A stretch of 64,000 nucleotides of DNA from positions 62,001-126,000 of the forward strand of contig WHVA01000145.1 of the NCBI GenBank assembly GCA_015179125.1, read 5' to 3'. The notes beneath the pieces are model-generated. The model ran no database searches. It was not told the DNA's origin and saw only the letters and a list, made by a program, of their open reading frames with translations. This DNA is from Gautieria morchelliformis (Eukaryota > Basidiomycota > Agaricomycetes > Gomphales > Gomphaceae). The number at the start of each line of letters is the position of its first letter. Position 1 is the first letter of the stretch. Shown here one piece after another: positions 16,045 through 59,813 of this stretch. The position numbers and the translations under genes are program-made.

Positions 16045-17490
16045 ATGTCCCACACCGTCCTCCCCCCCACGCCCTCTTCCTTGCGTTCCCTCTCCCCAGT
16101 CTACCCCACCTTCCTCCCCGACATCTCCTCACACAAGCCTCTCGCCCGCGGCGGGCCCTTCCCGCCCCCGCCGACAGGCCTCGAGCTCATGACCATGTTC
16201 CCCGCGTGTCCCCCGAGCGGGGCGTTTTTCCCGCATGCACACCAGACAAGCGCGGACGTGCACATGGGCGACGGCGGGGATGCGCACGCCGAGGACGGCG
16301 CGTGTGCGTGTGCGGCGTGCGCGCAGGGCGCGCGCGAGAGGGAGTATGCAGCACAGGCGATGGGCCGCGGGCTGCGCGGCACGAGCGCATGGTTCGGGCC
16401 GCAGGAGCGCGAGTTTTTCGGCGCGGGGGAGCGGGGGCGCGGTGGGGCGTCTGGCGGGGGGCGGGCGATTGCCGAGCGCGAGGCGTGCAGAGGTGGGGGA
16501 TACACGGGCAGCGATACGGACACACGCTGGCGCGGCGAGCGGGAGAACGAGCACGACTTCTTGGCGGGCGGGAACAGGCTGCGCGCGATCGGTGTCGGCG
16601 CAGGGGAGCACGGGGCGCCACTCCATGTCGCGACGGCGTGGAGCGAGGGCGAGCGGCGCCGCATGGTGGACGCGGAGCGGGAGCGCGGCAGGGTGGCGGC
16701 GGCGGCGGCGGAGCACCCCACCAAGAGACAGAAGAGTCTGGACACTTCTGCGATACCCAGCCCCGGCCCTGCGTCAGCTACGGACGTCGACGCGTCGCTG
16801 GCCACGTTGCGCCTCTCGCCTGTGGCCATGGGGCCTGCGCGCGGCTTGTCCTCCGCGGTACCAGAGCGGGAGCAGGAGCGGGTAAGGCCGCCGGCGTTCC
16901 CCGCACAGGCGGTCAGGCCGAAGGGGCGACCGGGGGCGAAGGGAGCAACGAAGGCGGGGTCTCCGCCTACGGTCTTGAACGGCGCGTCCCCGCGCAAGGC
17001 GCCGGCAGCAGCAGCAGCGGTGGCGGGCCCGCATCCGCATACGGCGTCCCCACATGTTCACACCTCGCCCATCGCCCCCGCGCCGCCCCCACCCCCGCAG
17101 TCCCCCGCGCCCCCTCCACCAGGCACCGCGGCAGCAGTGCCCCCAGCACCAAAAGCCGCCCCCCGCCGTCGCGCGGGCAAGTACACGAAACGCGCATTCG
17201 TAAACCAGCACCCCATGCCCCAGCCTTCTCCTCCCGCGGCGCAGCCGCTCGCGCCCAACGGAAACGGAAACGGCAACGCGCACGCGCACGCGCTGCAGCC
17301 GGAGTACCTGTACGGACACATGCTCCCGCCCCCGCCGTCGCACGCCGCCCCTTCGTCGCATGCGTATCCTTCCCCGCCGCAGCAGCAAGACCACGAACAT
17401 GCACACGAACACGAGCAAGCCCCTGCGCACGAACAGACGCGCGATCACGCGCACACGCTCCCGCCGCTGGTGCCTGTGGAGTGGAACTAG
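16045..17490 (+). CDS. GC-rich Pro/Ala/His-rich protein, full copy A
   Basis: Family not recognised; this is the longest copy of a multicopy gene in the window. ATG 16045 (MSHTVLPPTPSS) is chosen over the longer upstream frame because copy F has a matching MSHCPVP start and a TATATA lies about 140 bp upstream near 15,903. The product is about 481 residues. An N-terminal module carries PPTGLELMTMFPACPPSGAF, then a Cys cluster (CACAACAQG) and RGTSAWFGPQEREFFGAGER. The middle carries HDFLAGGNRLRAIG and GEHGAPLHVATAWSEGERRR, then SATDVDASLATLRLS. A basic stretch (RPKGRPGAKGATKAG) could be AT-hook-like. The C-terminal half is disordered Pro/Ala/His sequence around RRRAGKYTKRAFVNQ and ends LVPVEWN. 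The composition suggests a nuclear, disordered regulator, but that is inference. Its 3' end and UTR are duplicated at 24.3-25.6 kb. Confidence 0.55.
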   Translation: MSHTVLPPTPSSLRSLSPVYPTFLPDISSHKPLARGGPFPPPPTGLELMTMFPACPPSGAFFPHAHQTSADVHMGDGGDAHAEDGACACAACAQGAREREYAAQAMGRGLRGTSAWFGPQEREFFGAGERGRGGASGGGRAIAEREACRGGGYTGSDTDTRWRGERENEHDFLAGGNRLRAIGVGAGEHGAPLHVATAWSEGERRRMVDAERERGRVAAAAAEHPTKRQKSLDTSAIPSPGPASATDVDASLATLRLSPVAMGPARGLSSAVPEREQERVRPPAFPAQAVRPKGRPGAKGATKAGSPPTVLNGASPRKAPAAAAAVAGPHPHTASPHVHTSPIAPAPPPPPQSPAPPPPGTAAAVPPAPKAAPRRRAGKYTKRAFVNQHPMPQPSPPAAQPLAPNGNGNGNAHAHALQPEYLYGHMLPPPPSHAAPSSHAYPSPPQQQDHEHAHEHEQAPAHEQTRDHAHTLPPLVPVEWN

Positions 17491-18498
17491 GAGACGGATT
17501 CGGATTCGGCGTGGTGTGCGGTGCGTGTGGGTGTGGGTGTGTGTGAGGTGGGTAGGCGTGATCGAGGTGTCGAGGTTTGGGTGAGCGGGTGCATAGCACG
17601 TGGGCGGGACGGGCGTACGGGTGCGATCATCATGATGCCATGGACCCGGGGCGCGGATGGATGATGCAGGATCAAGCGTGCGCATCAGGCATTGTATCAA
17701 GCGGAAGACTCCAGGAACGGAGCGAGCAAGCAAGCAAGGGAAAGAGGGGAAAAAAAGGCAGTCGAAACCCAGAGGCCTCTGCCGCGCTGGCGCACTGGGC
17801 CGAGGGTGCGCGCACGAGCACCGTGGTGGTGCGGTGTGCGACTTGTGATGGGGCTGGCTGTCGGACGGGCGACGGATCACGCGCACGCGATGGGCCGGAT
17901 CGTGCCTTCCTCCGTCTTCTTCCGTGGTTTCTATATATATATGCGCTCTGGGTTTATTACGTCGTCTACGTGTCTTCGTCTACGTGTCTTGTACCATCGG
18001 TTGTTCGTGTTGTTGCGTTGTCGTCGTTGCGTCCTGTCGTTGTCGTGTCTTCGCCGTGATATATTAGGGATAGAGTGTCTTCGCTGTGATATCTAAGTCG
18101 TGTTGTATCGTTCTGTATCGTCCATTGCCTCTGTCATAAACTACTCACATCCACCGATACATGCATTAATATATCCAATAAGTACGTACAGTATTCCCAA
18201 CCGACTTCACAAATTCATCCCCACTCAGCGCCGTTCGATTCATTCCACCCAACATCAATTAATTAATAATTCCCTGGAGCTTCAGGGACTTTAAGATGAA
18301 TATCTCCCTGGTCATACGATAAATTATACGATATATTAACGACATAACCAGCTAAAATCATGTAATTAGTCGTAGTATACACTCGGACTGAGGCGTTATT
18401 ATGTAGTAATCTGAACTGAGCGCATCGCTGTTCCACCACCTGCTTCGTGCCTTTCGCTACTTAAGATTAAATAAGAGGGGGTCCCCGCTCTTAAGCTT

Positions 18499-18517
18499 CA
18501 TACCAGTGACTGGTATG
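18499..18517. repeat. 19-bp perfect palindrome
   Basis: CATACCAGTGACTGGTATG reads the same on both strands around one central base. In the second SD1 copy the matching site (about 25,843) has only the left arm, and foreign sequence begins right there. Confidence 0.6.
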
Positions 18518-18649
18518 TAAATTGAACTTTACAGTAAAGCAGTGAGTTAGACACCTGGCAATGCTTAGTAATGACCAGTGCTAAATTGTAGTCATTTTGT
18601 CTACTGCACATCAGTGTCGTCCGACTTCGCCGCACTGGCAGCTTCGTCA

Positions 18650-18693
18650 AAAGCACTGCGGACCAGTGCTCGAACACTGGTCCGCAGTGCTTT
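18650..18693. repeat. Perfect hairpin, 19-bp stem and 6-nt loop
   Basis: The left arm AAAGCACTGCGGACCAGTG pairs without mismatch with the right arm across a loop CTCGAA. The hairpin is absent from the otherwise similar second copy (about 26,255), which reads straight through. It may be a palindrome-generating repair scar or a tiny foldback insertion. Confidence 0.7.
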
Positions 18694-18965: not shown

Positions 18966-19024
18966 CTAACTTCGCGCCAACTTGTCCCCCATCTTCTTTA
19001 CGCAGGCGATTGTGACGCGCTATT

Positions 19025-21763: not shown

Positions 21764-22145
21764 GTACGTTCATGTTGCACCTACCTAGCAGCCATCCTGA
21801 TCTTCTCGGCAGGTATTTAAGTGTCGGCGGGTGTTTAACTGTCGGGGAGCAGTCAGTCCCGCGGGCACGGTCGTGTATGTGGTGTGTAGATGGTGCTTGG
21901 TAACACACTAACCTCTTTTTTACTTTGAAGGCCATCGTTTGGGCGGCTTGGATTTATCCGGAAATATTATACCGAGGGACCGTGGACCGCCTTCCTTGGA
22001 GGATGATCGCCGGCCACATCTCTTCCCGTCCATCTCAGACCAAGATGAAGGCCTCGGACACGCGCCAGTCGATATCATCTTTTTTGATGATAACTCACTG
22101 TTAGAGAGCACCTTAAACCCACCATTTCCACCTTACTCGCGCATT
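21764..22145 (+). other. Junction between the NLR-type exon and C2H2 copy 1
   Basis: A frame running 21,939-22,448 joins a unique stretch (RDRGPPSLEDDRRPHLFPS) to the C2H2 leader motif SLLESTLNP, so a fusion transcript is conceivable. The junction with C2H2-family DNA is near 22,083-22,090, where GATAACTCACTGTTAGAG matches the leader of the other copies. Confidence 0.4.
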
Positions 22146-23541
22146 ATGTACAACCAAGATATGGTTCCACAGCGAGCATCAGACCTCCCTTCCGTTCCGT
22201 CAAGGCCTGCCGGCACACATGGTTGTCGCGCTCCACAGCCGGAGAGTTTGCATCCATCTCGTGCTCGACGTGAAGAATCTGCCGTAAGGGAGCGTTTCGT
22301 CATGCACAACCGTGATATGGTCCCACAGCAAGCATCAGACCTCCCCTCCGTTCCGAACGGTAGCCGACGTAGTGATAGTCACCAACCCCCCTCCATCAGG
22401 ACTCACCTCCCTGGTAGAACGTTCCCTTTTGCATTCAACAGTGATTAGCGCTAACGACAATTGAACAGAGTTTTGTACTCCTGAATCGGCCGCGGTACAA
22501 CCACCCCTCAACGCGTCTTATGGTTACGATGTGAGCATATTTCTTCTGGTCCCCACTCCCATGAGTCTGTTCTTGTTGTCGGCGAACGTTGATTGTTTCC
22601 TGTGACCCGACAGCGTCCATCCCAGTCGGAGCGCTACCCTCCGAGCGAAGAGTCTACGCCATCCTCTTATACTCGTGGTCGTCGCGCGCCGCTGTCGGAG
22701 AATTTGCATCCATCTCGTGCTCGACGTGAAGAATCTGCCGCAAGGGAGCCTTTCGTCACATACAACCGAGATATGGTCCCACAGCAAGCATCAGACCTCC
22801 CATCTGTTCCGCCAAGGCCTGCCCGCACACATGGTCGTCGCGCTCCGCAGTCGGAGAATTTGGATCCATCTCCTGCTCGACGTGAAGAATCTGCCGCAAG
22901 GGAACGTTTCGTCATGCACAACCGAGATGTGCAAGCATCAGACCTCCCCTCCGTTCCGAACGGTAGCCAACGTAGTGATAGTCACGAACTCCCCTCCCTC
23001 AGGACTCACCTCTGTGGTAGGACGTTCCCTTTTGCATTCAACAGTAATTAGCGCTAACGACAATTGAACAGAGTTTTTTACTCCTGAATCGGCCGCGGTA
23101 CAACCACCCATCAACGCGTCATATGGTTATGATGTGGTCATGTACAACCGAGATACGGTCCCACAACGAGCATCAGACCTCCCCTCCGTTCCGCCAAGGC
23201 CTGCCCGCGCGCCTAGTGGAGACCCAGGGCGTAGGTTTGGGTGTGAGTTGTGCGACGAGCGGTATGACCGGCAAAGTGGTCTTGATGTATGTGGTTAGCT
23301 CTCGAGGTCGTTAACCTATGGTCTGACCCGCTTTATAGATTCATCTGCGATCGCGACCGCACGAAGATAAAAGACGTGAGCATCGCTGTCCACTGCATCT
23401 GGACTGGGCTCCTCGCTGACTGTACCTTTAGCATATGCTTGCAGCCAACCAGGATGCTCCAAAACGTTTTCAGTGGAATGCAATCTCCGCCGCCACACGA
23501 GGACCCACAATGGCGATAGTACAGTTGAACTGACTATCTAG
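22146..23541 (+). CDS. Two-finger C2H2 protein, copy 1 (leader duplicated)
   Basis: Six exons: 22146-22413, 22469-22530, 22614-23016, 23072-23286, 23339-23375 and 23432-23541, about 364 residues. The leader is a repeated, Ser/Pro/Arg-rich disordered module (RASDLPSVPSRPA, SRARREESAARER, RTHLP), present here in duplicate: exons 3-4 repeat exons 1-2 after a GTGAGC intron at 22,531. Finger 1 is CELCDERYDRQSGLDIHLRS then ...PH; finger 2 is CSQPGCSKTFSVECNLRRH...TH. The linker HEDKRPYAC fits the classical inter-finger linker and fixes the exon 5 donor at 23,376. The tail is short (NGDSTVELTI), and its stop lies inside the 46-bp tandem repeat. It is probably a DNA-binding regulator in the nucleus; targets are unknown. 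Confidence 0.7.
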
Positions 23542-23612: not shown

Positions 23613-24334
23613 CAGTTGCTGGCACTGTCGGCATTTATGCTCGGCCGTTTGCACAATAATCCATTCCGCGCCAAATGTTGACTCCACGTCAAATGTACTT
23701 GACTCTTAAAGACAGTTGTTAATTCCCAGTGGCAGCAAATAGTCACTGTATAAGCTACCTAAAGACAGTTGTTAACTACAAGCTAGTTAGCGGTGAACTA
23801 TAGTATACAGGTTAACGACTTACTTCCCAGTGGCAGCAAATAGTCACTGGGAAGGTTACATTACTGTACATGTGCGCATACACATATGCGTGTCTCAAAT
23901 TGAAAGGGGGTCGAGCACAGACCAATTGTTCCACCTTCCCGAGCTACAAGACGCTCGACATCCTACAACTCTGCGCCAAAAACATTGCAAGCCCTCCGGC
24001 GCCGCAAGCGATTTTCTCCATCTGAGTAGCATTATTGCAAAGGACGAGTGAGTCGCAAGTATTAAGACTTGTTCTCATTACGAAAACTGTCCTAACTACG
24101 GTGAGAGCATCACGGCAAGACCCAAGGAATGGGATCTAGTATTTTTCTTTCAATTCTCGACATGCCCAAGCTTCGCTAGTACCCCCTCTGATATCATGCC
24201 CTCTTTGATCCGGTAAGGTGCTAACCCTGAGTGTTCACAAGATGCGGAGGGAGGGAGGCTCATTTTTTCCACGGAGTTTTTGACTCTGGGTATGGTGGGG
24301 GGCTGCTGAACCCGCAGTTAGGATCATCGCGCGG
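23613..24334. other. Non-coding stretch with paired foldback motifs
   Basis: No gene is supported. The motif CCCAGTGGCAGCAAATAGTC followed by ACTG occurs at 23,725 and again at 23,826, and in the second copy its ends CCCAGTG/CACTGGG are inverted repeats. The motif AAAGACAGTTGTTAA also occurs twice (about 23,708 and 23,761). This looks like a small non-autonomous or satellite-like repeat. The frame at 23,830-24,051 has no recognisable content. Confidence 0.5.
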
Positions 24335-24687
24335 CAGCGGCGGCCTCAGCACCAAAAGCTACGCCCCGCCGCCGCGCGGGCAAGTATACGAAACGCGCAT
24401 TCGTAAACCAGCACCCCACGCCCCGGCCTCCTCCCGAAGCGGCGCAGCCGCTCGCGCCCAACGGAAGCGGCAACGCGCACGCGCACGCGCTCCAGCCGGA
24501 GTACCTGTACGGACACATGCTCCCGCCGCCACCGTCGCACGCCGCCCCTTCGTCGCATGCGTATCCTTCCCTGCCGCAGCAGCAAGAACACGAACACGCA
24601 CATGAGCACGAGCAAGCCCCTGCGCACGAACAAACGCGCGATCACGCGCACACGCTCCCGCCGCTGGTGCCTGTGGAGTGGAACTAG
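24335..24687 (+). pseudogene. 3' fragment of the Pro/Ala/His-rich gene, copy B
   Basis: From the frame at 24,335 (SAPKATPRRRAGKYTKRAF) this copy follows copy A to LVPVEWN and the TAG at 24,685-24,687, with small in-frame differences. The N-terminal module is absent: upstream sequence is unrelated. The duplication breakpoint lies within the coding region, so this is a promoterless fragment unless it has captured a new start. Confidence 0.75.
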
Positions 24688-26545
24688 GAGGAGGAGGAGG
24701 ATTCGGCGTGGTGTGGGGTGCGTGTGGGTGTGTGAAAGGTGGGTAGGCGTGATCGAGGTGTCGAGGAATCGAGGAATCGACGAAGCTTGAGGTTTGGGGT
24801 TGAGCGAGGTGCATAGCACGTGGGCGGGACGGGGCGTACGGGTGCGATCATCATGATGCCATGGACCCGGGGCGCGGATGGATGATGCAGGATCAAGCAT
24901 GCGCATCAGGCATTGCATCAAGCGGAAGACTCCAGGAACGGAGCGAGCAAGCAAGCAAGGGAAAGAGGGGAAAAAGAGCAGTCGAAACCCAGAAGCCTCT
25001 GCCGCGCTGGCGCACTGGGCCGAGGGTGCGCGTACGAGCACCGTGGTGGTGCGGTGTGCGACTTGTGATGGGGCGGGCTGGCGACGGGCGACGGATCACG
25101 CGCCTTCCTCCGTCTTCTTCCGTGGTTTCTATATATATATGCGCTCTGGGTTTATTACGTCGTCTACGTGTCTTCGTCTACGTGTCTTGTACCATCGGTT
25201 GTTCGTGTTGTCGCGTTGCATGTCGTCGTTCCTCCGTCCTGTCGTTGTCGTGTCTTCGCCATGATATATTAGGGATAGGGTGTCTTCGTTGTGATATCTA
25301 AGTCGTGTTGTATCATTCTGTATCGTCCAATGCCTCTGTCATAAACTACTCAATCCACCAAAACAGACATTAATACATCCAATAAGTACGTACAGTATGC
25401 CCAACCGAATTCCACAGATTCATCCCCACTCAGCGCCGTTCGATTCATTCCACCCAACATCAATTACATAATTAATAATTCCCTGGGTTCAGGGACTTTA
25501 AGATGAATATCTCCCTGGTCATACGATAAATTATACGATATATCAACGACATAACCAGCTAAAATCATATTAGTCGTAGTACACACTCGGACTGCAGAGG
25601 AGTCATTATGTAATAATATAAACTGAGCTCATCACCGTTCTACCATCTGCTTGCCTTTCGCTACTTCGAGTGCAACCGAACTCCACATGTCTTCGCCCTC
25701 GCTTCGACCATTGTAACTACCCTGTGTGTGTGGGGTGGATGGGTAGCCGCCCGGATTGTTGTGTATAAGTTGTGTTCTTTTTTCGGCTTTTACTGCAGTG
25801 TACTACTGAGCATTTAATTAAATAAGAAGGGGTCCGCACTCTTCATACCAGTGACAAGCGCATGTCACCATACCATCCGCCCTCCAGGTATCCACTTTCT
25901 AACAACTGTACAGAGACAGGAACATCCGCCTTGGAGAAGAAATGGATGATGATGCTCTCGTTATTCTCTTCGACCTTGGCTTGGACTCACGATTGCCTGC
26001 TCTATCCAAGTGGAAGCAACAATATGATGCATCAAATCTGAGATTCACAGATGCTAACAGTGTCAAGCTCACTGAGATGGAATCCAAACTCAGCGAGCAT
26101 CGGGGTCTGCTCGAGGTTGCGCTAGTTATATGTAAAGTTCAACTGTGAGTTAGACACCGGCAACGCTTAATGCATAATGACCAGTCCTGAATTGTAATTT
26201 TCGTAGTCATTTTGTCTACTGCACATCAGTGTCGTCCGACTTCGCCGCACTGGCAGCTTCGTCAAGACCACTTGCCATCAGTTCCCAAGCTTCCTGTAGT
26301 GCATAGAAGGCGCCTTGTCCGCTCGACCGAGAATCTGAGGCTTCCTCTGGCACCACGAGCATCGGCACAGTGCTGTGTCTAAGTGAGAGGTCATCGCCAT
26401 CAGAATTTTCTTTCCAGCACAGATGCAGGAAGAAATAGCTGACATGGCTCTGATTTGAGTAGGAACGATATCATTTACGCCACAGCCTTGGGAAGCCAAA
26501 TACGTACATTCTGTCTGAAAGGAGTGCCAAACACTATATATACCT
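24345..26545 (+). repeat. Segmental duplication SD1, copy 2
   Basis: Collinear with 17,139-18,971. It contains two extra insertions: about 150 bp near 25,666-25,818 and about 270 bp near 25,858-26,130. The latter includes a coding-like piece (DDALVILFDLGLDSRLPALS, then WKQQYDASNLRF and LTEMESKLSEHRGLLEVAL) that I cannot assign. It lacks the 44-bp hairpin of copy 1. Confidence 0.8.
26485..26545 (+). promoter_or_regulatory. C2H2-family promoter, copy 2
   Basis: The same block as at 18,920 and 60,835, with TATATATA at 26,535-26,542, 71-78 bp upstream of the ATG at 26,613. Confidence 0.55.
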
Positions 26546-26612
26546 GCTACTTTGATCATAGGTCACTGTTAGAGAGCATCTTAAATCCACGGTTCCACCT
26601 TACTCGCGCGTT

Positions 26613-27479
26613 ATGTACAACCAAGGTATGGTTCCACAGCGAGCACCAGACCTCCCCTCCGTTCCGTCAAGGCCTGTCCACACACATGGTCGTCGCGCTC
26701 TGCATGAGTCGGAGAATTTAGATCCATCTACTGCTCGACGTGAAGAATCTGCCGCAAGGGAGCGTTCCGTCATGTACAACCGAGATATGGTCCCACAGCA
26801 AGCATCAGACCTCCCCGTTCCGAACGGTAGCCAACGTAGTCTCCAACTCCCCTCCCTCAGGACTCACCTCCGTGGTAGAACGTTCCCTTTTGCATTCAGC
26901 AGTGATAACGCTAACGACAATTGAACAGAGTTTTTTACTCCTGAATCGGCCGCGGTACAACCACCCCTCAACGCGTATTATGGTGATGATGTGGTCATGT
27001 ACGACCGAGATACGGTCCCACAGCGAGCATCAGACCTCCCCTCCGTTCCGCCAAGTCCTGCCCGCGCGCCTGGTGCAGACCCAGCGCGTAGGTTTGCGTG
27101 CGAGTTGTGCGACGAGCGGTTTGACCGCGTATGTGGTTAGCTCCCGCGGTCGCTGATCTATGGTCTGACCCGCTTTATAGCCTCATCTGCGATCGATATT
27201 GCACGCAGATCAAAAACGTGAGCATCGCTGTCCATTGCAATCCGAACTCTGGACTCCTCGCTGACTGTACCTGTAGCACATGCCTGCAGCCACCCCGGAT
27301 GCTCCAAAACGTTTACAGTCAAGTCCAGTCTCCGCCGCCACGAGAGGATCCACGACGATGCCGTTAGCGCATTTGAAGGGTCTCCTGAGGAAAGACCTTC
27401 ATATTCTGGCCACTACAGCAACACATCCAAACCCCCCAAACCGCCGTCTTCTACTACTTATTACTCCTCTTGCCAGTAA
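26613..27479 (+). CDS. C2H2 protein, copy 2 (finger 1 shortened)
   Basis: Four exons: 26613-26874, 26929-27128, 27181-27217 and 27277-27479, about 233 residues, open throughout. The leader MYNQGMVPQRAPDLPSVPS and the REESAARER motif match copies 1 and 3. Compared with them, finger 1 has lost five residues at the end of exon 2 (DERFDR joins PHLRSILH), which removes part of the recognition helix and spoils Cys-to-His spacing. Finger 2 (CSHPGCSKTFTVKSSLRRH...IH) is intact. The C-tail is a Ser/Pro/Tyr-rich segment ending STTYYSSCQ. It has its own TATA promoter. It may still bind DNA through finger 2 only. Confidence 0.68.
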
Positions 27480-27924: not shown

Positions 27925-28435
27925 CCGCCACCGCCACGTCTTGCCTCGTTCTCGGAGCTCCTGTGTCGACGTCGGCGTCACCTTTCCCCCACCTCCCTTC
28001 CTGAAACTAAGACTGACGACGCTCGCGCTCCTCTGCCGTCTGATACCCACGCGTCCCACGCGTGTAATACGTCTAATGCCACCGCACAGGCACCAATCTC
28101 GGCACTGCCGCACCCACACCAGGAGCCGCGACAGGACGCGGTGCAGGCGCAGCGACGAGAAGAGCGTGTTGGGGTTCGGGTTCGGGTTCGGGTGTGGGTG
28201 CTGCGGCGGGTGCGGGTTCAGGTGCTGGTGCTGGTGCGGGTGGGGAGGTGAATAGGGAAAGGAATGGGGTGAGTCTGCGGGCGGGTAGGGGTACGCGCGG
28301 GGCGGGGGAGGGGGGGACATGGGTGCGTACGCGCCGCTGTGCGGCAGGTGGGGATACGCGTTGGCGCGGGTCCGTTTCCTGGGGGGGCGGGGGGCGGGAT
28401 TGTGTTTCCGGGATCTGCGTTTGTGTTTGTGTCAT
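27925..28435 (-). pseudogene. Decayed Pro/His-rich gene copy D
   Basis: A minus-strand copy related to the C-terminal half of copy A. A start MTQTQTQIPETQSRP at 28,435 resembles the MTQTQTQ sequence upstream of copy F. One frame keeps the SPPPPPRAYPYPP / PHPHQHQHLNPHP stretch, a second keeps the terminal LVPVRWH at 28,073-28,096. The two frames do not agree, so at least one frameshift has occurred. The Tyr-Thr-Lys-Arg core motif and the N-terminal module are not seen. Confidence 0.5.
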
Positions 28436-28494
28436 GCTGGTGGGCGTGAGCTGGGGTGCCCAAGCAATTTGGGGTCTGTATAAGTCCCATTGAA

Positions 28495-28710
28495 ATTTTC
28501 TACGCAGCACTCGTATAAGGATTCTTGCTTCCAACGTGAATACGTTACGCGAAGAGCCTTTGCGATAGCACGTTAGATCGATTCGTAGGTGTAGGGCACC
28601 ATGGCTGCTGGTTAATTCGTTGCCTCGCCCGCGTACGTCCCAGCTGCCAAACCCGGTGCAGTTGGATTCCTTAGTCCATTTCTCTGAGTAATCGCATATA
28701 ACGCCCAAGT
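28495..28710. repeat. Duplicated spacer, matches 36,185-36,400
   Basis: The block beginning TTCTACGCAGCA and containing GAATACGTTACGCGAA, CATAGGTG-like and CAGCTGCCAA motifs recurs near 36,185 with scattered substitutions. It lies on the 5' side of the minus-strand Pro-rich copy here. Confidence 0.65.
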
Positions 28711-29730
28711 CTATTAAATCCCATCCTCTCTCGCTTTCTTTCTCTGCGTTCGCGTCTCCTTCCATCCTAGCGCGGTTTCGTGCTTCGCCACCACTTACGT
28801 GCGCGTCGGCTGTGCATCTACAAACGAATACCGCACAGTGGAAGAGCGCAGTATGAGGACGGGATGTTTGGGCATGAACGCGTGGATTGGGATGCAGGGA
28901 GCGTGTGATTTGCGGGTGTAGAGAGGGACGACACCATATTTGGAGTAATGATGGGGAGGAAAGGTTTGAAGGGACAGGTGATTGTGGGGGCCTCGAGCGT
29001 GAGCTTGAATTGAGGTAATGGTGGGTGGTAGAGATGTGTTTATGTCTGTTCCTCCCTCCAGCCAAGGGCGCTCCACATGGTGCAACGATATAACAGTGCG
29101 CACGTACATGCCCTATCCCGCACCACGAATACCGCCTCCCCGCATGGACATATGCTCCCTCCGCCTCCTCCACACGTACCCCAGCTTACAAACATCGCCA
29201 CGCATACCCATACCAGAATACACTCATGGCCCACCGTGGTCGCCGGCTCACAAGTCCTGGGGTAGGAATATCCGCGTGTGCAGGATCTGGTAAGCGTCAC
29301 GAGGGGAGTTCTAGGCATGGGTGGAGTTAAAGGCCCCAGGAGGCCATAAGCATGGGCATGGGCTCGAACTGGACGTTTATTGGCATCAAGCGCGGTGGAA
29401 GCGTGGAAAGGGAGGTGACAAGACGATGTACTGATATCAGGATCCTGGAATCTGGATAAAAACACTACATTTTAATGTTGACGTGTGCTGCTGTGTTATC
29501 GCGTCGTATGTGACGTCGCGTTCTATCGTGCTGTGCTCGCTGGTTTGCTGTCGTGTTCTATCGTCCATCTCGGTCTGTCCTGTCATATATCGCCCCCTAA
29601 CCCATAAATCAGGATCCAGTAGGAACGACGTCCCGTACGTGCATGCGCGTCGCGTATCAGGCGTGTATCGGGCGGTGCGGTGGTCAGACACTGAGCCCCC
29701 AAGGAAAAACCGGCCGCCGTCCATATGTTC
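28711..29730. other. Spacer without recognised gene
   Basis: Long low-complexity frames on both strands give no domain. The right part (29,440-29,730) belongs to the duplicated tRNA segment. Confidence 0.4.
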
Positions 29731-29743
29731 AAAAAAAAAAAAA
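29731..29743 (-). terminator. RNA polymerase III terminator of tRNA-iMet
   Basis: A run of 13 A on the plus strand is a T13 tract on the transcribed (minus) sense, starting 5 bp after the tRNA 3' end. Such a T-run is the normal Pol III stop signal. Confidence 0.8.
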
Positions 29744-29748
29744 CAGCG

Positions 29749-29821
29749 TAGCAACTCCAGGTTTCGATCCTGGGACTTCGGGGTTATGGGCCCCGCGCGC
29801 TTCCTACTGCGCCAAGTTGCT
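29749..29821 (-). tRNA. Initiator tRNA-Met (CAT)
   Basis: On the minus strand the 73-nt gene starts AGCAACTTGGCGCAGTAGG and ends AGTTGCT plus discriminator A. The acceptor arms AGCAACT/AGTTGCT pair fully. The D-arm matches A-box layout (GGCGCAGTAGGAAGCGC), the anticodon loop is CCCATAA with CAT at plus 29,786-29,788, and the T-arm is CCAGGATCGAAACCTGG. The A-starting acceptor and the ATCGAAA T-loop (rather than TTCGA) are hallmarks of eukaryotic initiator tRNA-Met. No intron. A T13 terminator follows. It starts translation by bringing Met to the start codon. Confidence 0.93.
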
Positions 29822-29879
29822 GAGGCTCCGATGCGCTGCGAGACATGGTGTGCGACGATCAACACAGCGTCGCTTAAAT

Positions 29880-32740: not shown

Positions 32741-32942
32741 AACAATCTGACCAGAATATTCAGGCGGCTAATAATATCTGATGCTCCATGTGGTACAGTA
32801 TTACTAACTTTAATTCTTTTACATATGATGGTCATCAGTATCCGAATCTTATATATGCACCTACCGCGGTCTGCTACTCCAACCCCACATCGCTACACAA
32901 AACTGAGTTCCTCGTCTGCATCCCAGTTTTCTTTGTTGTATC

Positions 32943-34735
32943 ATGTCTCAGGCGGACCCCTCCGTGGTTATCCAGGTGCAATCAGACAGGTCCGTACTTA
33001 CTACTATGAGTGAGATGCTGAAGAACTTACCTGAACTAGCTTTGCGATCAACTGTGTCACCTTCGCAGCGCTTGGTATGCGTATATGTCCCCTATCTAAT
33101 TCCATTATTTCCATAGCTTGTTACACAGCACTGCTCATCTACGACACTCTTCTCACACTGCCGTCTGAGATCAGGCACATTTGGTGCAAGACCATCAAAA
33201 TCGGCTCCATTTTCTATATACTCGCTCGTTACCTGACCTTGGTTTTCGTTCTTGTTGAGATATATGCCAAGTTTTCTCCCATGTCCCTCGAGGTGATTAC
33301 TATGGTTCTCATGCGTAATACCCCTACTGAATTTAATGAGTGTCTAGTATGACTTTCATTCCTTATGAAGAAGCAACGCAGAGACTAATATGCTTGAAGG
33401 AAATGTAATAACATAATTCATCTAGGTGATGCTTTGGATATTCCGGGTCTGATCGGAGTACAGGGTGCGTGGTCATACCTATATATTTCTCAACTAGAAT
33501 TATTAACACGATATACTTGTATAGGCCTTCTACTAGCTCGCAGCTATGCCCTTTCCCTTCAGAATCAAAGAGTTATGGGTGCTCTCGGGTTGCTTATTCT
33601 TGTGACTATTACTGTTGAAGTGGTATGTATCTGTCCAGACTTTGCATAAATAACATATATTCATTTCACTGGATATAGTACTTGTCCGTTTTGGAAAGCT
33701 GCAATCCCACTAGTTCACAAATTGATACATTGACTTTGTCAGTGCTAAGTAGGACTTTCTGCCTAGATTAACACTAACAAATTCTTCAGGTGTAAGATCT
33801 TGGGGCATGCATTTGCCCAAGTTGTTTCTGAATACCTTTCACAGTGGCTACTGTCAATGGTGTTACCGTAATCCTTTTTGACACTGGAGTTGTGATAACA
33901 ACCATTCTGAGCTCAATTGAAACCTTGAAGCTTTGGAAGAATGGTGAAATTCGGGATAAGAAATCACTTGTTAGTTTACTGATTTACCAAGGTGAGTTTA
34001 CACTACATTGCCTTATGTGTGGACATATCACTAATCTACAGGTAAGGTTTTATCAGATATGGGTTTGGAATATTATTCCTATGATATTTCATATAGCTAA
34101 TTTATAATCAGATTTGTGCTTACAATTACTTTGGCTAGTACTATCACATATAAGGTACAGTTATTTATAAACCTGTTGAGCTTTCAGAGCTTACTTTGTG
34201 GTCTTTTACATTTTAGGTATTGAGGGTATGTAAAATGTTGACCTTGATAATGAAAGTGGCTAATTTCAGCTCCTTCATGGTAGCCAAGCCTTGCTGCCAT
34301 CTTAGGCTGGCCTCAGAACAGGTATATTCTCAGCAAGTTAAACATGAAGACATGTGATGGAACTAAATGTGCACATGCAGCTTATCAGCAATTATCATCT
34401 GCCGCTTCCACCTAACCCTCAAAGAGAGACACAGTCAACTTGACAATTCCTCATCACCCACTCTTTCATTCAGCAGCTTCCAAGCAGCCAGACGAAGTGT
34501 TCACAATGCCATAGTAGCTGAATTTGGAAACACTCACTTGAGCCAGGATTTTAATGCTGAGACCTTGGAGGACAATGAGGATAATCAGGAAAGCCAGCAG
34601 CCACCTGATGTGGCTGGGTTGGCTGGGATAGAGTTGGATGATTCCCCTTGGGTGACTGGATGTCCTGGAGATGTAGAAATGATGAGGTCCATTGTCTCCA
34701 GTGAGCAGTTAGTGTTTCCTTCAGACACTGGTTAA
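32943..34735 (+). CDS. DUF6533-type multipass membrane protein, copy 1
   Basis: Fungal membrane protein of the DUF6533 type, a family of unknown function common in agaricomycetes. The start is MSQADPS at 32,943. The signature exon reads ALLIYDTLLTLPSEIRHIWC, followed by a membrane segment; this TLL-YD...E...IW pattern defines DUF6533. Later exons carry ALSLQNQRVMGALGLLILV, then VTVILFDTGVVITTILSS and a segment that normally includes the DG(T/V)LYF-like turn (here IYQG). The cytosolic tail starts LSAIIICRFHLTLKERHSQL and runs through AARRSVHNAIVAEFGN, then an acidic end stopping at 34,733-34,735. About seven or eight exons; several junctions remain ambiguous. The gene is the most divergent of the three copies. 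Confidence 0.65.
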
Positions 34736-45491: not shown

Positions 45492-48400
45492 TGTAAATAA
45501 CCCGTGTATCTACATGTACATTAGTTATTACATAATCCCAGTGGGCCCCTTAGGGACCCACTGTATAGTTTATGCGTGGGAACCGGCTAGCGGTCCCCAT
45601 CGCATCTTACTCTTACCTGTCACTACGTAGCATTCAGAATACCACTCATTGGTCAAGTTCTGCAGTGCCCTTGTGATACAAGGTCCTAAGATCGACATCT
45701 TTACACCTTTTTGAACTATCCTGCGGTTGATCGCCACGCGACCAACCGATAGTGGATTCGAAGCAATCTTGAAAAAGATCGCTGCGTCGACGACTAAACA
45801 TCGTTGAGACCCTCCAGTAGACCCTCTACTGTCGGCTGCGAGCATGATGATTCCACGCAGTCGAAGACGGACACGAGCGACGAGCTCGAGATCCACACCC
45901 CAGGTGCAGCCCAGTGACACGACGGCTGACGCTATCCTGGACCAAGAGACCAGGACGATAGAAGACGGAGAGATCGTAGATCTCACCGCCCTCGTCCCCT
46001 CAGTAGGGAACGAGGAAAACCTCGACCACGTCTCGTCGAGCGTGGCCGAAGAAGAGACGACGCCGAGCGATGATCCGGCACCGCCCCCCCATCTCCCTCT
46101 GCCCGAGGACAAAGGAAAGGGCAGAGAAGTCTCGCCGTTGTCAGACGGTAGAGCAACAACGTCGAGACGGGCACAAAGCCACGACTCAAACCGACACTCA
46201 CGAAGTAGAGCGACGACCATCGTCCCTGAAGGAGGATGATGGCAAAAGAGACGAGCCCCAGACAATAGTCAGGACTCGGAATACTCAAGCTCTAGTCGCA
46301 AGAGCTCAAGGGCTCACGCCATCGACCACGAGACGGCAGAGGCCCTGAACAAACAGGTGCAGGCTGCACCGAAGCACGCTGACGCGCCACAAGCACGATC
46401 AGCTGGCACTGCAGCTCGACAACGCCACCGCCGCCCTAATGGCAATCAGCAAGGAACTCCACCAGGCGGAGGAGATCAGGCTGCAAGACGCAGCCACGCT
46501 GGAGGACGTCCAGAAAGCACTCCGCCCACGCAGGGAACGCGACGCAACTCGTCCGAGCTCGCGACAGTCCGCAGCTAATGAACGCAGTCGCGATGCGTGC
46601 CAAAATGAGCGAGACAAGCAGCGAATGCCGCCGCCAGCCGTCCCGGTCGAACAGGACGTAATGTTCGGGAATGAACCTCAGGAGCAACCGGCTGCCCCAA
46701 CGGACAGCCATAAAACGATCCAACAGATCGTTAGGGATCAGGTCGCCTCAGAGCCTGACTCTGAAATGATGACCGAGAGCTTAGAGCTTGAAGTTGCACA
46801 CTGGCAGCGTAAAGAAGCCGCAGCCGCGTGCCGCCACACACGGGCACTCGAGATACTAGCCAAGAATGCCGAAGAGACGGTGGCCCACAGCCACACCGCT
46901 CAGCTGCCCGACGAGCAGCTCACGCAAGCCATACAGGACGCACGGCAAGCGCGCGCTGCCTACAACAGCAGGCTACGGATCCGCAACGCGGGACTGACCG
47001 GGGACACCAGGCACAAAACACCCCCGGAACCGAGAGCACAAAATGCTCCCGATCCCGAGCCCGATCCAGGCCTGGGGCCCGTCAGGGCATATAACAGCCT
47101 ACCCCGCGCGGCGTCACAACCGCGCGAGCGATCCATGGCCCCAACGGAAGGCCAGGGAATCCCTGACCAGGCCGACGTCGTACCAATGGAGCCGTACGAC
47201 GGGATCACGTGGATCATCCGCGTGGTGTTGGCAGATGCCATGGACACAGACCTGGAGAAGTCTGTGCTAGCGAAGGCCGGCGTAAAATTGGCCCACCCCA
47301 AGCCATATGCAGGGGGATCGGACCTCGAAGAGTTTGAAATCTTTGTGGCAGCCATCCTACGATGGCTGAAAATGAATTGCCTCCTAGGACCAACCAGCAT
47401 CGACATGCAGGTCGGCTATGTGGGCACTCGCCTCACCGGCGAAGCCCAAGCATGGTTCCTTCGAAACGTTGAACGCTTCGATCGCCAGGTCCGCATCTGG
47501 ACACTGGAATCAGTGATGCAAGGCCTTCAAAAGAGGGTCCTGCACACACTGACATACCATCACGCCTCGAATAAGTTCGATGCGGTCATGCAAGGCATGA
47601 AAACTGTTCAGGAGATGCTGAACGAGCTCACGAAAATACGCGGCACGTATGATACAGCCGCCAGACGAGTACACGTTCCGGAGACGGTTCGTATCTGCGC
47701 TACGCGAAACGCTGTGCAATGAGGTCCTCAAAAAGGGCTATAATGCCGAGAGCAGCTCAATAGAGCAACTCTTCGAGACAGCCCGGATGATCGAGGAGGC
47801 ATCCCGATATAACATGGGGATGCGCCACGCAGAAAGCGCAGCAGCAACGGCTAGCGCCGCCCGGCTCACAGGGAGCAAGCCGTTGACACCAACAGGCCTG
47901 ACCAGGCCCAGCCTGTTCGCAAGAAGCGGAACAGGTCAACGGCTACCGCCCTCATGCCCAGCACAAGCTGGACGCCCGCCTGAAGCTAAACAGCCTCAAG
48001 CGTCAGGATCGTCCCCGCGACCTGCCCCACCGACGAAAATGTCGGGCCGGCCCAATGACAGGCTCAGCGGCAGCCAAAGCAACACCGCATGCTTTGAATG
48101 CGGCCAACCTGGCCCCAAGAAGGCAGAATGCCCCCGGCTTAGGTCCGGTATAAGGACAGCGGCCGTGAGGCACGAGGGTGAAGCCGAGGATCCGGAGACG
48201 GATCCCGATCAAAGCTCTCTTCAACAGATTGATGAAGAGGGGGAGGGTGATCCCCAACCCAATGACACTCCGGATAACGGAGACACACCCGCTGAAGAAT
48301 GGGACGCTGAGCCGTCCCAATACTATGAATGGGATGAAGAGGTGGAGGACACCACCTACAGGTCCAGCACGATCAGATTCGCGCTGGAAGACGAAACCGC

Positions 48401-50364
48401 CACGAAAGTCATGGCGGCACGCACATCGGTCACGCCATATAAGGCGGCCGAGCCGGTGTATCACCACCGAAGCAAACACAGAATGCAGCCAACGCGTCCG
48501 CGTAGTGAGAACCGTACCCTATCGGGGTACTGGGAAATAAACGGCGTAAAAGCCCACTGCCTGCTAGATAGCGGCAGCGAAGGGGTACTGCTGTCCCCCG
48601 AATTCACGCGAGCTACAGGGATGAAGACATTCTCCCTGGAGCAACCAATCGCGCTGCAGCTAGCCTGCATAGGCAGCCGTTCCACGATCAACTATGGAAC
48701 GAACACGACCATCAAGTTTGGTCGTGGGACATACGACGAATACTTCGACGTAGCAAACGTCGAATATTATGACGCGATCTTAGGGGCACCATTCCTAAGG
48801 AGATTCGGCATAACCCTGGACTTCTCGAGCCCAGGGATGATCCGCAAGGGAAACGAGGTGATCCCCACGGGCAAGGTCTCATTCTACGACGACGAATCGA
48901 AGAACGAGGACAAGGGGCCATCGGTGAGCAGAGTCACCCAAGCGCCAATGCCGAACCTGGCTCATTGAAGCCAGGAGGACGAGTCGTCTCGCGACTCGTC
49001 CTCGAACTCACCCTACAGTCGTAGGGAGAGACGCTCTCACCTAATGGTGAAAGCGATGGGAAAGAGGAAAGCGGGCCCGTGCGCCGCGGGACCTAATAGA
49101 CGCCAACAGCGCCTAATGGCTTCTAAGCCAACCACTACCATCATCCTCACGGATGATGACCTTCCTCGCCTCCGCGAGGAATGGATGGAAAGAATTGCTG
49201 ACCTAGTCAGTGGAATTCCATTAGACAAAAGAAATGCCGCAGATTGCGCGTACGCGCGAGATGATCGGCGTGTTCAAACGCATCGAGCGCGAACAACGCG
49301 CTCGCAATCCCAAAAGGGATTGTCTCGTGATAGCGGGCGGTACCCCGCACGACATCGCGGCCATTCTAAAGGGTTGGATACACAACCCTGAAGGAATCCC
49401 CTCCACCATCCGTGACAACGCAGATGGCACCTTCAACCTAGACGACATGGACGTCTGGATGTGGTTGAAGGCACTCATGCCCCGAGTCAAAGGGGTCGCA
49501 TCACCACTCAGGGCGAGGCTACTCGACCTCTTTGGCTCGATGGACCAATGGTCAAGCCTCGTCGACGCCAGGGAAGTGCTGACACCTCAGAGCACCACCC
49601 TGCGGCTCTCAATCACGGGCCCATTCCCTGTGGAGGGCCGGGCCGGCCCCGACATCCCACTCGCGGAGATCACAAGATGGTTGGCCCGCTATGCGGGAGT
49701 CACTCGCGAGCGAGCGGCGCGCATTGAACATTACGTTCAGCGCAGCATCACCGGCGCGGCATTCAGCGCCGCCGCCCGTGAGGGCCAACAAAAGGTCATT
49801 GAGACCAGCCACATGAGGGCCGCAGTGCCGCGACCCCTCACTCACGCTCAGCTCGACCAAGAGCTGGCGCGCTTCCGGCCCACTCCTCAAACGGAGGACC
49901 CGGCTGTTGAGGCCATGCTCCGCGAGGACGCGGGCCCCAGCGCCCAAGCGGAGACCGCCGCTAATGGTGAGGCCGACCACCCTCACCCGATCGCCACCGA
50001 TGACGCGGAGGTGCCCCCGGAGGAGTCACGTGCTCCTCCGTCCCCGTACGACGACGACGTCGTCGTCGTATCGGCCACTCTAGAGGACTCCCTCATGGAC
50101 GACCTCTATGAGTAGGCGTTAACCCCTATAGTTGTCTATAGAGGGGGAGGGTGTAAATAACCCATGTATCTACATGTACATTAGTTATTACATAATCCCA
50201 GTGGGCCCCTTAGGGACCACTGTATAGTTTATGCGTGGGAACCGGCTAGCGGTCCCCATCGCATCTTACTCTTACCTGTCACTACGTAGCATTCAGAATA
50301 CCACTCATTGGTCAAGTTCTGCAGTGCCCTTGTGATACAAGGTCCTAAGATCGACATCTTTACA
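45492..50364 (+). mobile_element. Young LTR retrotransposon, gag/protease type (fossil)
   Basis: Two LTRs of about 213-214 bp (45,492-45,705 and 50,152-50,364) start TGTAAATAACC and end CATCTTTACA, flanked by the 5-bp duplication ATATT. They differ at about two places, so insertion was recent. A purine-rich tract (GAGGGGGAGGG) precedes the 3' LTR. Parts: a gag region with coiled, charged N-terminal sequence and a capsid-like segment (about 45,850-47,720), then a zinc-knuckle-like Cys motif and a DSG aspartic-protease region (about 47,650-48,970), and a 3' ORF of unknown role (49,234-50,115). No reverse transcriptase, RNase H or integrase is recognisable, so it looks non-autonomous; the family is probably Ty3/gypsy-like. 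It is inserted inside a small TIR element. Confidence 0.85.
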
Positions 50365-55041: not shown

Positions 55042-55264
55042 TGCTTCTACGCTGCCTTAGCTGATTTGATTCTATCTGCCATCAGTCATGTCCCCTTGGC
55101 AAAATTTGTTCAACGCTCACTGATATGGAATGCTGTGAATATCTATGGCCAGGCAACACCCATAACCAGAATATTATATATACACATTGCGCGATCGGCT
55201 ACTCCAACCTCACATCGGCACGCAAAGCTTAGTCCCTCATCTGCATTCTAGTCTTTCTTATATC

Positions 55265-57053
55265 ATGCCTCAGGCGGAAGCCTCGGCTCAAAGCCAGGTG
55301 CTATCAGACCAGTACGTACTTACCACATGGCGTGAGATGCAGAATAACTTACCTGAACTAGTTTTGCGGTCAACTATGTCACCATCGCAGGGCTTGGTAT
55401 GCGTACATGTCCCTTGTCTAATTCCACCATTTCCATGACTTGTTACACAGCACTGCTCATCTACGACACTCTTCTCACACTGCCACCTGAGATCCAGTAC
55501 ATTTGGTGCAAGACCGTCAAAATTGGCACCATTGTCTATTTACTCGCTCGTTACCTGCCCTTGGTTTTGTTTCTTCTCGTCATATATGGTAATTTATCTA
55601 ACATGTCCATTGAGGTATATTATGACAATGCTCTCATGTGTAACACCCTTATTGATCAGAATGAGTATCTAGTATGACTTCCATTACTTATGAAGAAGTA
55701 AGCTAGAGACTCATATATTCAAAGGAAATGTAATATTATAAATCACCTAATTGTTGCTTTAGAAGTTCCTTCTCTGATTGGTATACAGGGTGAGTGATTA
55801 TACCCATATATTTCTCAGGCTGAAGGATCAACAAATTTTATTATCTAGGCCTTCTGCTAGCTCACACCTATGCTATTTCCCTTCAGAATCAAAGAGTTTT
55901 GGGTGTCCTTGGGCTGCTTATTCTTGGGGCTATTATCATCACAGTGGTATGTTTGTGCAGATTGTGTATAAATAGCATAAATTGATTTCACTACATATAG
56001 TACCAGTCTGTTTTGGACACCTGCAATATCACTAGTTCACAATTTAATATATTGGCATTGTTAGTACTGAGTCTGATTTTCTGCCTAGATTAACACTAAC
56101 AACTTCATCAGGTGTAAGATCTAGGGACCTGTATATGTCCAATTTGGATCTGAATGCCTTTGACAGTGGCTACCATGAATAATGTTACTGTAATCCTTTT
56201 TGACACTGGAGTTGTGATAGTAACCATTATGAGCTCAATTCAAACCCTAAGGCTTTGGCGGAAAGGTGAGGTTTGGGATAAGAAATCTCTCATTAATCTA
56301 GTGATTTACCAAGGTGAGCATACAACATATTGATTATATATATGGACATATCACTAATCCACAGGTAAGGCTTTGTCAGATATGGGTATGGAGTATTATT
56401 CCTATGATATTTTGTATGTTGATTTACATTCAGATTTGTGCTTACCATTACATTAGCTGATACTATCACAACTAAGGTCTTGTTACTTATAAACCTGTTG
56501 AGCTTTGAGAGCTTACCCGGTCTTCTCTTACATTTCAGGTAGTGAGGGTATGTAAGATGTTGATCATAACATAAAAATGGCTAACTTCAGCTGGTATAAA
56601 GCAAAGCATTTCTCCTATCTTGGGCGGGCTTCAGAACAGGTATCTTCTCAGCAAGTTAAGAAGAAAGACATGTGATTGTACTTACAGTGCACATACAGCT
56701 TGTCAATAATTCTTGTCTGCCGCTTCCACCTAACTCTCAAAGAGAGACACAGTCAACATCACAACCCCTCATTACCCTCTCTTTCATTCTCCAGCTTTCG
56801 GGCAGCTAGACAAAGTGTCCACAATGCCATAGTGACTGAATTTGGGAACCCTTGCTTGAGCCTGGATTTTAGTGCTGAGACTTTAGAGGACAATATGGCT
56901 GATCAGGAACACCAGCAGTCACCTGGTGAGGCTGGGACAGCTGGGATAGAGTTGGATGAGTTTCCTTGGGCAACTGGATGTCCTGGAGATGTAGAAACAG
57001 CTGGGCCCATCACCTCTGGTGAGCAGTTAGCAGCTCCTTCAGGCACTGGTTAA
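55265..57053 (+). CDS. DUF6533-type multipass membrane protein, copy 3
   Basis: Start MPQAEASAQSQVLSDQ at 55,265. Signature exon ALLIYDTLLTLPPEIQYIWC continues as KTVKIGTIVYLLARYLPLVL and FLLVIYGNLSN. Later exons: LLAHTYAISLQNQRVLGVLG and LLILGAIIITV; VTVILFDTGVVIVTIMSS and IQTLRLWRKGEVWDKKSLIN; and LADTITT. The tail opens LSIILVCRFHLTLKERHSQH, continues AARQSVHNAIVTEFGNPCLS, and ends with an acidic, Gly/Ala-rich segment at TAA 57,051-57,053. Introns are short GT-AG. It is the best-preserved of the three copies. Hydrophobic segments imply a polytopic membrane protein; the family has no assigned function. Confidence 0.68.
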
Positions 57054-58500
57054 TGGTTTGGTAGAATCTGGCAGAACAGCAGAGGCTTAATGATAGCATC
57101 CAAGCTAATGTGTCATAGCCACAATTCCCATACAATCACCCTAGCGGAGAAACACGCAGCCACTTGCATAAACTTACCTTTCTAATCCATTGCAGTGCTG
57201 GAAATTGGTCGTCATAGAAGATGTGGCTATCTGCTCACTTGGGCCAACCCATACTGTCAAAAACCATAGATACATATATATTTGTGCCATTTCAAAGTTT
57301 ACTATGTTCATAATTCATTATTACTATGCTTTGTGAAAATATGGTTCATGTTTTGCTGCTGGGAGTCAGTGAATTGTGTGCCAACTCAAGAAATTACATG
57401 CCAAGGAATATGTAGGGACAGCCTCAGGAAACAAACTGCATGTAGTGCTTTTGCATGCGTGTGTCTGGGATACTGATCTGGTGTGAAGTTCAGGCTTAGC
57501 TATGTTAGTTTGTAAATGCTGTGAAACAGCATGGCCAGGCATACCATACCATTGTCACATTCTTACATGTTGAGCCAGCTTACATCAGGGCTCAGCATGC
57601 ATCAGTGTCAACATGCAAATATGTGCAAATATAGCATCGATCATAATCATCTACATACCGTTCGTCACAGGTGGTAGTGTGTCCTATGGTTCAGGATATG
57701 GGTGTTAGTTCCTGGGATGCTATTCTGCTTGGCAGAAGCATACTCCCAGACCCAGACCCAGTTTCCCTGACCCTATATGAAGTGTGTGGCACACGCCGCA
57801 CCATCAATGAGAAACGTACTCCGTTCCTCTGGTCGAATGTTGCCACAGCCCACGAGGAGAAAAATGACGAGGAAGAGTCTCCACCCGACTCGAGGACTCA
57901 GCTGTGCGCTGACTCTGCCCATGCATAGGCCCCATGCTGCGAACGCTGTGGGCCCATGACGGCCTCGAACACCCTGTCAGACACGAGTGCGCAAGACCCT
58001 ATTGTAATGCGTATGAGTATCAGCAGCGTTTGGCCTGGTTGGAGCCTGACTCACGGCTAAATGAGTTAAACTGAGGGAGACCGCGACGTACCCGATCATG
58101 ATGGACACTGATATCCCAGTCGCACGCGTAGAATACCATATATATATACTCCACGCGAGTGCCGTATAGTCTGGATGCGCACGAGTATACGCGGATGTGC
58201 CAAAAGCTCCTAGGCTTGCCGCGTGTCCAGCTGTCTGTCTTCAAGATACCCATGCGCCGACTCGGAGCACCATACAGTCTCGAGGCACACAAGTATCTGC
58301 AGACGTGCCAAAGTAAAGTTCCTACGCTCGCCGCGTGTCCCAGTCCGCCGTCACGGTCTGTCTTAAATCTTCGAGTCATGATACGGCCGTACTGGACGCC
58401 ATCGTCACGCGATGCGCCGCCTGCCGCTGTACTTCCACTGGCAGTGCGCAATGCGCATGACGACACGATGGACCCACTTACAGTAAGTGTGTAACAAAAA
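57054..58500. repeat. Downstream spacer of DUF6533 copy 3
   Basis: Collinear with 40,756-42,160 and 34,736-35,880. CpG-rich words such as CGCACGAGTATACGCGGATG survive here. No supportable gene; frames at 57,671-57,928 and 58,159-58,494 are probably fortuitous. Confidence 0.55.
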
Positions 58501-58525
58501 CAGCGCGCTGTCTTCCAAGCACTTC

Positions 58526-59813
58526 TCAATATAGCCTTAATGGCACCGCACAGGCACCAAACCCGGCACCCCCACACCAGCCCCAGGATGGACCCCAGGA
58601 CCGACCCCCGGACCGACCCCAGGACCTACGCCGGGACCTACGTCGGGACCCGTAACATCCCGCGGTGGGAGCGAGCGTCGTGTGTGCATGGGGGCGCGAG
58701 TGGGGAGGCGGCGACCATGCGGCCGAGTAGGCGTGCGCGTGCTGCGTGGGCATGGGCGGCGGCGGGGGAAGCATATGTGGGTGCGTGGGGGTGGGGGTGG
58801 GGGGTACGCGTTGGGCGCGGGTGCGTGGCCGTTTCCCGAGCCGGCGGGCGTGCGCGGCGGGTTCACGAAGGAACTTCATGTACATGCCCGCGCGGCGGCG
58901 GCGGGGTTTGGGCGGGTATTGGTAGGCCTGCCGGTATGAGTAAGGGTGCGGTGGCGGTGGTGTGCGCAGGTAAGGGGGGCGCTTGCGGGTGTAGAATTAG
59001 AGGTGGCGGGCGTGTGTGGCGCTGCGGGTGCGGCCGCTTTTGTTGCTGTTGTGGGAGAAGGCGTGTGTGCGGGGGTGCGGGGACGCGCGGTGTGGCGGCG
59101 GGGGCGACGCGCGCACATGCTCACGTGCGTCGCGCGCGCGGCCCCACAGTGAGAGGGCCAGCGTCGCCAACGACTCATCGACGTCGGCGGCGCTCTCCAG
59201 CCCCAGCCCCATCCCAGGCCCCTGCGCCACTTCACGGGGGCTCGTCCCCCGGCCCCGCCGCGCCGATCGTGCTCACGCGCTCCCCGGCGACATGAAACTT
59301 GCGCTCGGCCGCGGACGGCATCTTGAAGAACTCCCGCCATCTGGGGACATCCGCGTTGTCGCGCGTGCGCCCGCCTTTGAGCACGCGCACGCCCCCGTGC
59401 CCGCCCCCGGCCCCGAAAAACGCGCGCGACTGCACGCCCAACCACGCGGACGTCCCGCGCCACGCGCAGCGGCCGCACTCACTCTCCAGGTGCCTACTCT
59501 TCTCGAGCTCGCCCCGGGCACACGTCTCGCACGGGCAGCGCGTGTCGTCCGCGGGGAAGGCCCCCGCGTCGTGGTGGGCGTGCGTGTCATGTGGGAAGGA
59601 GCCGCCACTCGGGGGACTAGTCGGGAAGAGCTTCATGAGTTGATTCCCCGTGGGCGGGGGCGGGGCAGTGGGGGGCGTGAGGGGCGGGATGGTGGAGTCT
59701 AAGGAACAGCGCTCGGTCAGAGCCACGCGGGACTGGGCAATGGGACATACCCTCCGCCGGGAAGGGTTGTGCCTCCAGGGTCACTGCTTGTGTTTGTGTC
59801 TGGGTCTGGGTCA
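58526..59813 (-). pseudogene. Pro-rich gene copy F, nearly full length but broken
   Basis: A minus-strand copy with both halves. The N-terminal module is clear: PPTGNQLMKLFPTSPPSGGS, a Cys cluster (CPCETCARG), RGTSAWLGVQSRAFFGAGGG, and then WREFFKMPSAAERKFHVAGE followed by RVSTIGAAGPGD. The middle motif SAADVDESLATLALS appears in another frame (about 59,180), and the C-terminal part ends VGVPGLVPVRCH at 58,537 after GVGPG repeats. MTQTQTQTQ at 59,813 and MSHCPVPRG lie upstream, in a frame different from the N-terminal module. Two or more frame changes make it a probable pseudogene, though uncharacterised introns are possible. Comparison with copy A defines the conserved residues of this family. 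Confidence 0.6.

Follow-up and report, generated by a model that had tools for sequence, protein, structure and literature searches.

The window analysed here is a 64,000-nucleotide stretch of a Gautieria morchelliformis contig (C166, positions 62,001-126,000), taken from a genome of 122 Mb in 1113 contigs, and it holds five copies (A, B, D, E and F) of a family recognisable by six short protein blocks. Copy A (16045-17490, + strand) is an intronless open reading frame of 481 codons with a stop. Block 1 (16162-16221), PPPPTGLELMTMFPACPPSG, is of the PPTG-LM-FP-PPSG type and features a short predicted helix over LELMTM; block 2 (16303-16341) is a C-x-C-x2-C cluster; block 3 (16375-16428), RGTSAWFGPQEREFFGAG, is of the RGTSAW type; block 4 (16783-16821), DVDASLATLRLSP, is of the DVD-SLATL type; block 5 (17164-17205), RRRAGKYTKRAFVN, is of the AGKYTKR type and basic; and block 6 (17458-17490) reads LPPLVPVEWN followed by the stop, all on the + strand. 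A further basic cluster, TKRQK (16720-16734, +), was read by eye and resembles a nuclear localisation signal, a role it may have. At the matching place the copy on contig C284 reads AKRRRG (also by eye), and the basic clusters TKRQK and RRRAGKYTKR are both kept in A and in the C284 copy.

The other window copies are less complete. Copy B (24330-25666, +) duplicates the last ~120 codons of A, with its stop ending at 24687, together with the 3′ flank, and carries blocks 5 and 6; it belongs to a segmental duplicate in which 17127-18462 matches 24330-25666 at 88.6%, and beyond the stop the two agree at 95% across 934 aligned bases (83 gap columns). Copy D (28073-29185, - strand) is an open frame ending in VPRLVPVRWH that contains block 6 only, the six-frame block scan having found none of blocks 1-5 in it. 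Copy E (37299-37907, -) has blocks 5 and 6 only, in differing frames. Copy F (58537-59814, -) is decayed: traces of all six blocks are spread over several frames, blocks 4-6 lie in frames other than those of blocks 1-3, and an in-frame premature TGA (59234-59232) stands ahead of block 4. The exon of F that begins with MTQTQ has its first ATG at 59814, not 59813, and an intron-like stretch of 52 nt (59750-59699) has the ends gtatgt...ttag; at the same place the C284 copy has an intron-like stretch with the ends gtacgt and ctag. Upstream of F we observed a diverged second motif resembling block 1, PSPAPGHDVVMMFPVCLPVEG (59962-60024, -), which scored 52 (shuffle maximum 49), and a weaker motif of this kind at 30094 (-) scored 38, below that maximum. 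The similarity of F to other copies thins between 60040 and 60320. A boundary near 60320 was weighed as a possible element end and then discarded, as several other copies align with one another further upstream.

To score the blocks, we scanned the whole window for all six in six frames with BLOSUM62 and compared the scores with those of 50 local shuffles. The PPTG-LM-FP-PPSG block scored 97 in A and 101 in F (shuffle maximum 49) and the RGTSAW block 87 in each (shuffle maximum 36); these two and the C-x-C block occur in A and F only, two of the five copies, and the C-x-C block is clear in F and equals the best shuffle (44) in A. The DVD-SLATL block was found in A and F (61 and 40, shuffle maximum 36), and the AGKYTKR block in A, B and E (68, 68 and 45, shuffle maximum 33), with a degraded form in F scoring 26, below the maximum. 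Only the terminal LVPV block is present in all five copies; it is short, and its score exceeds the shuffle maximum of 41 in D, E and F (52, 48 and 47) and on its own stays below it in A and B (37). The block set itself is real, though the full set stands in a single frame in one window copy, A; the original prediction had all five copies sharing it.

The window contains other repeats as well. A piece resembling OXA1/60KD_IMP (846-2108, -) has four further genome copies at 86-87%; those on contigs C206 and C566 lie ~0.5 kb from an N-terminal block of the family, and the one on C500 lies ~0.4 kb from family DNA pieces. A tRNA-Met-like sequence (29749-29821, -) sits within a repeat (29600-29840) with 43 genome matches, so the repeat is possibly a tRNA-derived SINE, and a piece of its body also occurs in one of the fetched family loci (L078). 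Two overlapping frames at 46349-48968 weakly match retrotransposon gag and aspartyl protease, with scores below the Pfam cut-offs. Three long segmental repeats (32844-35181, 38824-42125 and 55122-58431) share 77-83% identity, and a shorter repeat family (22083-23529, 26490-27407 and 60833-61936) has several tandem and dispersed copies whose longer matches are 82-96% identical.

Coding character and constraint

Homologs of A beyond the locus do exist, in the form of dozens of copies on other contigs of the same genome, so that within this genome the refuting case named with the original prediction, a lack of such homologs, does not hold. A protein search of this genome returned at least 71 match rows at E<=10 and at least 53 at E<=1e-3, some loci giving two rows, and since 89 of 107 candidates were scored these figures are lower bounds. 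The AGKYTKR pattern occurs at 18 genome sites, nine of them on C166, and the QER-FF pattern at 22; the reversed control of each gave 0.

One alternative is that A has no coding function and is no more than an open run of GC-rich sequence whose blocks are simply shared DNA. We consider this unlikely, if deserving of some weight. The 2-kb stretch holding A is 69% GC and two overlapping + strand frames are open there, one for 608 codons and a second for 542, which makes the length of the A frame weak evidence when taken alone. Against a non-coding origin, GC content by codon position in the frame of A is 0.738/0.630/0.807 at positions 1/2/3, in the order third, first, second, and between A and the coding part of B there are 5, 6 and 15 differing bases at positions 1, 2 and 3 (355 aligned). 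In nucleotide MAFFT alignments covering the N-terminal block, the differences between A and 13 copies amount to 26.7/35.6/47.4% at positions 1/2/3, the third position being highest in all 13 alignments, which likewise argues for a gene. Copy-to-copy differences are 17.9/14.9/23.9%, a ratio near that of A to the copies. A codon model fitted over 95 codons to 11 sequences, which were picked for open frames and protein similarity, gave an omega of 0.236, well below 1 (lnL -1701.1, compared with -1756.1 in the best of four runs that had omega set to 1), and an omega of 0.253 for the ten copies without A.

Not every test agrees with these alignments and models. The median pN/pS is 0.66 between A and 53 copies and 0.67 between copies (1367 pairs); by this measure A is no more constrained than the copies. 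Over BLAST-aligned columns, a majority-base comparison counted 15, 28 and 27 differences at positions 1, 2 and 3, with no third-position excess, and 15 synonymous vs 30 nonsynonymous codons, the frame of A doing no better than another (P=0.14). Column permutation gave 552/10000, or 848/10000 with CpG columns left out. As the constraint tests disagree, part of the signal may be mutational. Overall, the evidence speaks with moderate strength for protein-level constraint on the family in the past and falls short of proving that A is constrained today. The proposal of a real protein with short constrained blocks in low-complexity sequence, which outside the blocks aligns poorly, is supported by the nucleotide alignments and the codon models, though the remaining tests do not all agree.

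Decay of the dispersed copies and their relation to A

A different reading is that the loci form a functional multigene family, with many copies translated and introns that are invisible to six-frame reading. The intron-like stretch shared in place by F and the C284 copy, the five blocks that C284 has in one frame and the omega of about 0.25 among the ten copies other than A are consistent with it. A functional multigene family would, however, have most of its members open. When blocks were counted per single stop-to-stop frame in the 66 fetched loci, A alone had all six and the C284 copy alone five; ten loci had three, 27 had two, 23 had one and four had none. Frame-breaking indels, of lengths that are not a multiple of three, were found within the one exon block at the N-terminus in 43 of the 54 copies (A not among them) aligned to the corresponding block of C284. 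Many copies are fragments, and the seven closest pairs (pS < 0.06) range in pN/pS from 0.17 to 2.0. Two copies on C382 and C781, picked as candidates for intact members by the codon spelling of their QERAFF block, also turned out to be broken. With most of the copies examined frame-broken, a functional multicopy family, as in the original prediction, is not supported, and we regard many translated members as distinctly improbable.

The copies show CpG transitions at 10%, compared with 4-6% at other C and G. RIP is not favoured as the cause of decay, given that CpG transitions are raised and other contexts are less so.

The only near copy of A is B, the next DNA match being 69-70%; in an unrooted codon tree A has a long branch to itself, separated from ten other copies; and the 5′ flank of A matched only A's own loci among the loci fetched. 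The suggestion that A was the hub of copying is therefore not supported, and its distance from every copy except B indicates that the amplified copies did not descend directly from A.

A TIR element carries some of the copies

Two of the loci, L026 and L043, have 1877 bp in common at 99% and unrelated flanks. The unit is bounded by CCCAGTGAAAA and its inverse. Among the seven two-ended elements, perfect 7-bp target duplications were read by eye in the flanks of four (L026, L041, L043 and L079), and imperfect ones in three (6/7 in L082, 5/7 in L035 and L057). The element body is carried by nine loci with gene blocks, while it is missing from 49 loci that show similarity to the unit; five of the nine carriers are two-ended (L026, L035, L041, L043 and L057), with perfect duplications in three and 5/7 in two. 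The forms L079 (1377 bp; of two possible right ends the inner was used, 201-1577) and L082 (1337 bp) are elements without the N-terminal block, and L080 and L081 apparently contain, judged by eye, only a smaller middle gene piece around the TKR/DVD block. One terminus was found at 26 genome places at <=2 mismatches (control 0), and for further terminus places loci on C235, C829, C1081 and C456 were fetched.

The TIR element carrying family fragments is short and non-autonomous. As in a captured gene, a fragment lies between TIRs with target duplications (nine loci with element body, five of them showing both ends), and the element also exists without the N-terminal block. Regarding its class, hAT elements make 8-bp target site duplications and Mutator-like elements (MULE or Pack-MULE) duplications of ~9 bp; neither rule fits the duplications here, which are 7 bp in the four perfect cases. 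Helitrons are not known to have TIRs or target duplications, unlike the present element, which has both.

A single vehicle common to all copies was considered and rejected, because the edges of several close pairs show no shared terminus across groups. The non-carrier copies have pairwise boundaries that vary between groups, 12 of 13 loci examined lacked self-inverted repeats, and no terminus upstream of the gene was found in the copy alignments compared. The intact A lies in a 64-kb window from which the exact 11-base TIR is absent, yet a long branch separates A from the copies.

The presence of nine copies within the element, with target duplications where both ends are present, could also mean that the protein is itself of transposon origin, A being a transposon gene, either domesticated or mobile to this day, with the copies as its relatives. 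We give this little credence: L079 and L082 are forms of the element that do without the N-terminal block, the similar loci that have no element body number 49, the exact TIR is missing around A, and the protein is without any Pfam domain at E<=10.

Predicted structure and relatives of the A protein

AlphaFold2 modelled the N-terminal piece (14 sequences) with a pLDDT of 61 and a pTM of 0.22, and with three helices: one at block 1, another following the cysteines and a third at block 3. The whole A protein was modelled with a pTM of 0.25, and 277 of its 481 residues have pLDDT < 50; helices were placed at 45-51, 90-106 and 201-222, the last of them confident, and none of any length at block 3. 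The A protein is thus predicted, by models whose pTM is low, to be mostly disordered with short helices. The docking motifs previously suggested for this protein accord with that picture in general, while the helix of block 3, which appears only in the N-terminal-piece model, lends them less.

No Pfam match at E<=10 was obtained for copies A, D and E and two pieces of F. The best match in a PDB sequence search, with a query that included 127 residues upstream of the ATG, had an E of 0.78 and is not credible. The viral contigs searched contained no relative, and a literature search for a named relative or the family motif strings found none. Agaricomycete hypothetical proteins presumably have the same motif order as here, with PPTGH(D/E)LMxLFP close to the N-terminus, then TSGxFxRQERAFF, and RRAGKHTKR at the C-terminal end. 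Our best inference is that A encodes a disordered protein that would reside in the nucleus and bind its partners through short helices.

A probable host gene and a decaying sister lineage

Taking these results together, we lean towards an explanation, which we hold to be modestly probable, in which the host gene A encodes a regulator that is disordered and perhaps nuclear, and the rest is an amplified and decaying pseudogene family of a sister lineage, partly transposon-carried. Copy A would be an ordinary host gene. Its block 1, and perhaps block 3, may serve as docking helices, and TKRQK and RRRAGKYTKR would be basic segments, possibly nuclear-targeting or nucleic-acid-binding, so that A might act as a nuclear regulator binding partner proteins via its helices. 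The sister lineage, which in the two copies read at the DNA level (F and C284) appears to have an intron after the MTQTQ exon, would have multiplied to some fifty or more dispersed copies; those examined are mostly broken, with raised CpG transitions. For nine of these copies the vehicle was the short non-autonomous TIR transposon with its 7-bp target duplications, and for the remainder segmental duplication and repair are suggested by ends that differ and are shuffled. Very improbable, in our judgement, is the bolder proposal that A is the first member of a fungal family, so far undescribed, of nuclear regulators that are disordered and have a short activation-domain-like helix (ELMxxFP), and that transposon capture spread this helix to transcribed loci, giving rise to truncated competitors of the parent.

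The locus adds a case to the published fungal examples of a transposon capturing and multiplying part of a host gene. It also calls for caution, in that conserved-looking coding stretches recurring in such a genome can be the decaying copies of one gene. Should A have orthologs, the short blocks would offer ready-made motifs with which to probe the binding partners of the protein.

Comparison with known systems

A report on Pseudocercospora fijiensis describes a histone H3 gene captured and amplified by a hAT transposon, with copies inactivated by RIP and one gene intact (PMC6710886). The likeness to our case lies in a host gene fragment in a DNA transposon, many inactivated copies and one intact gene, and in view of this precedent a transposon-amplified gene with an intact original is an already known kind of system (PMC6710886). 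The two cases differ in that H3 is a known housekeeping gene, carried by a hAT element, with copies inactivated by RIP (PMC6710886), whereas here an uncharacterised gene, a 7-bp duplication, and indels with raised CpG transitions are involved; unlike the H3 copies as described there, most copies in G. morchelliformis are without a recognised element and the intact gene is not their direct parent. In the basidiomycete Pleurotus ostreatus, Helitron-borne genes have been described (PMC4289320), and the resemblance is one of basidiomycete mobile DNA that carries genes of unknown function (PMC4289320).
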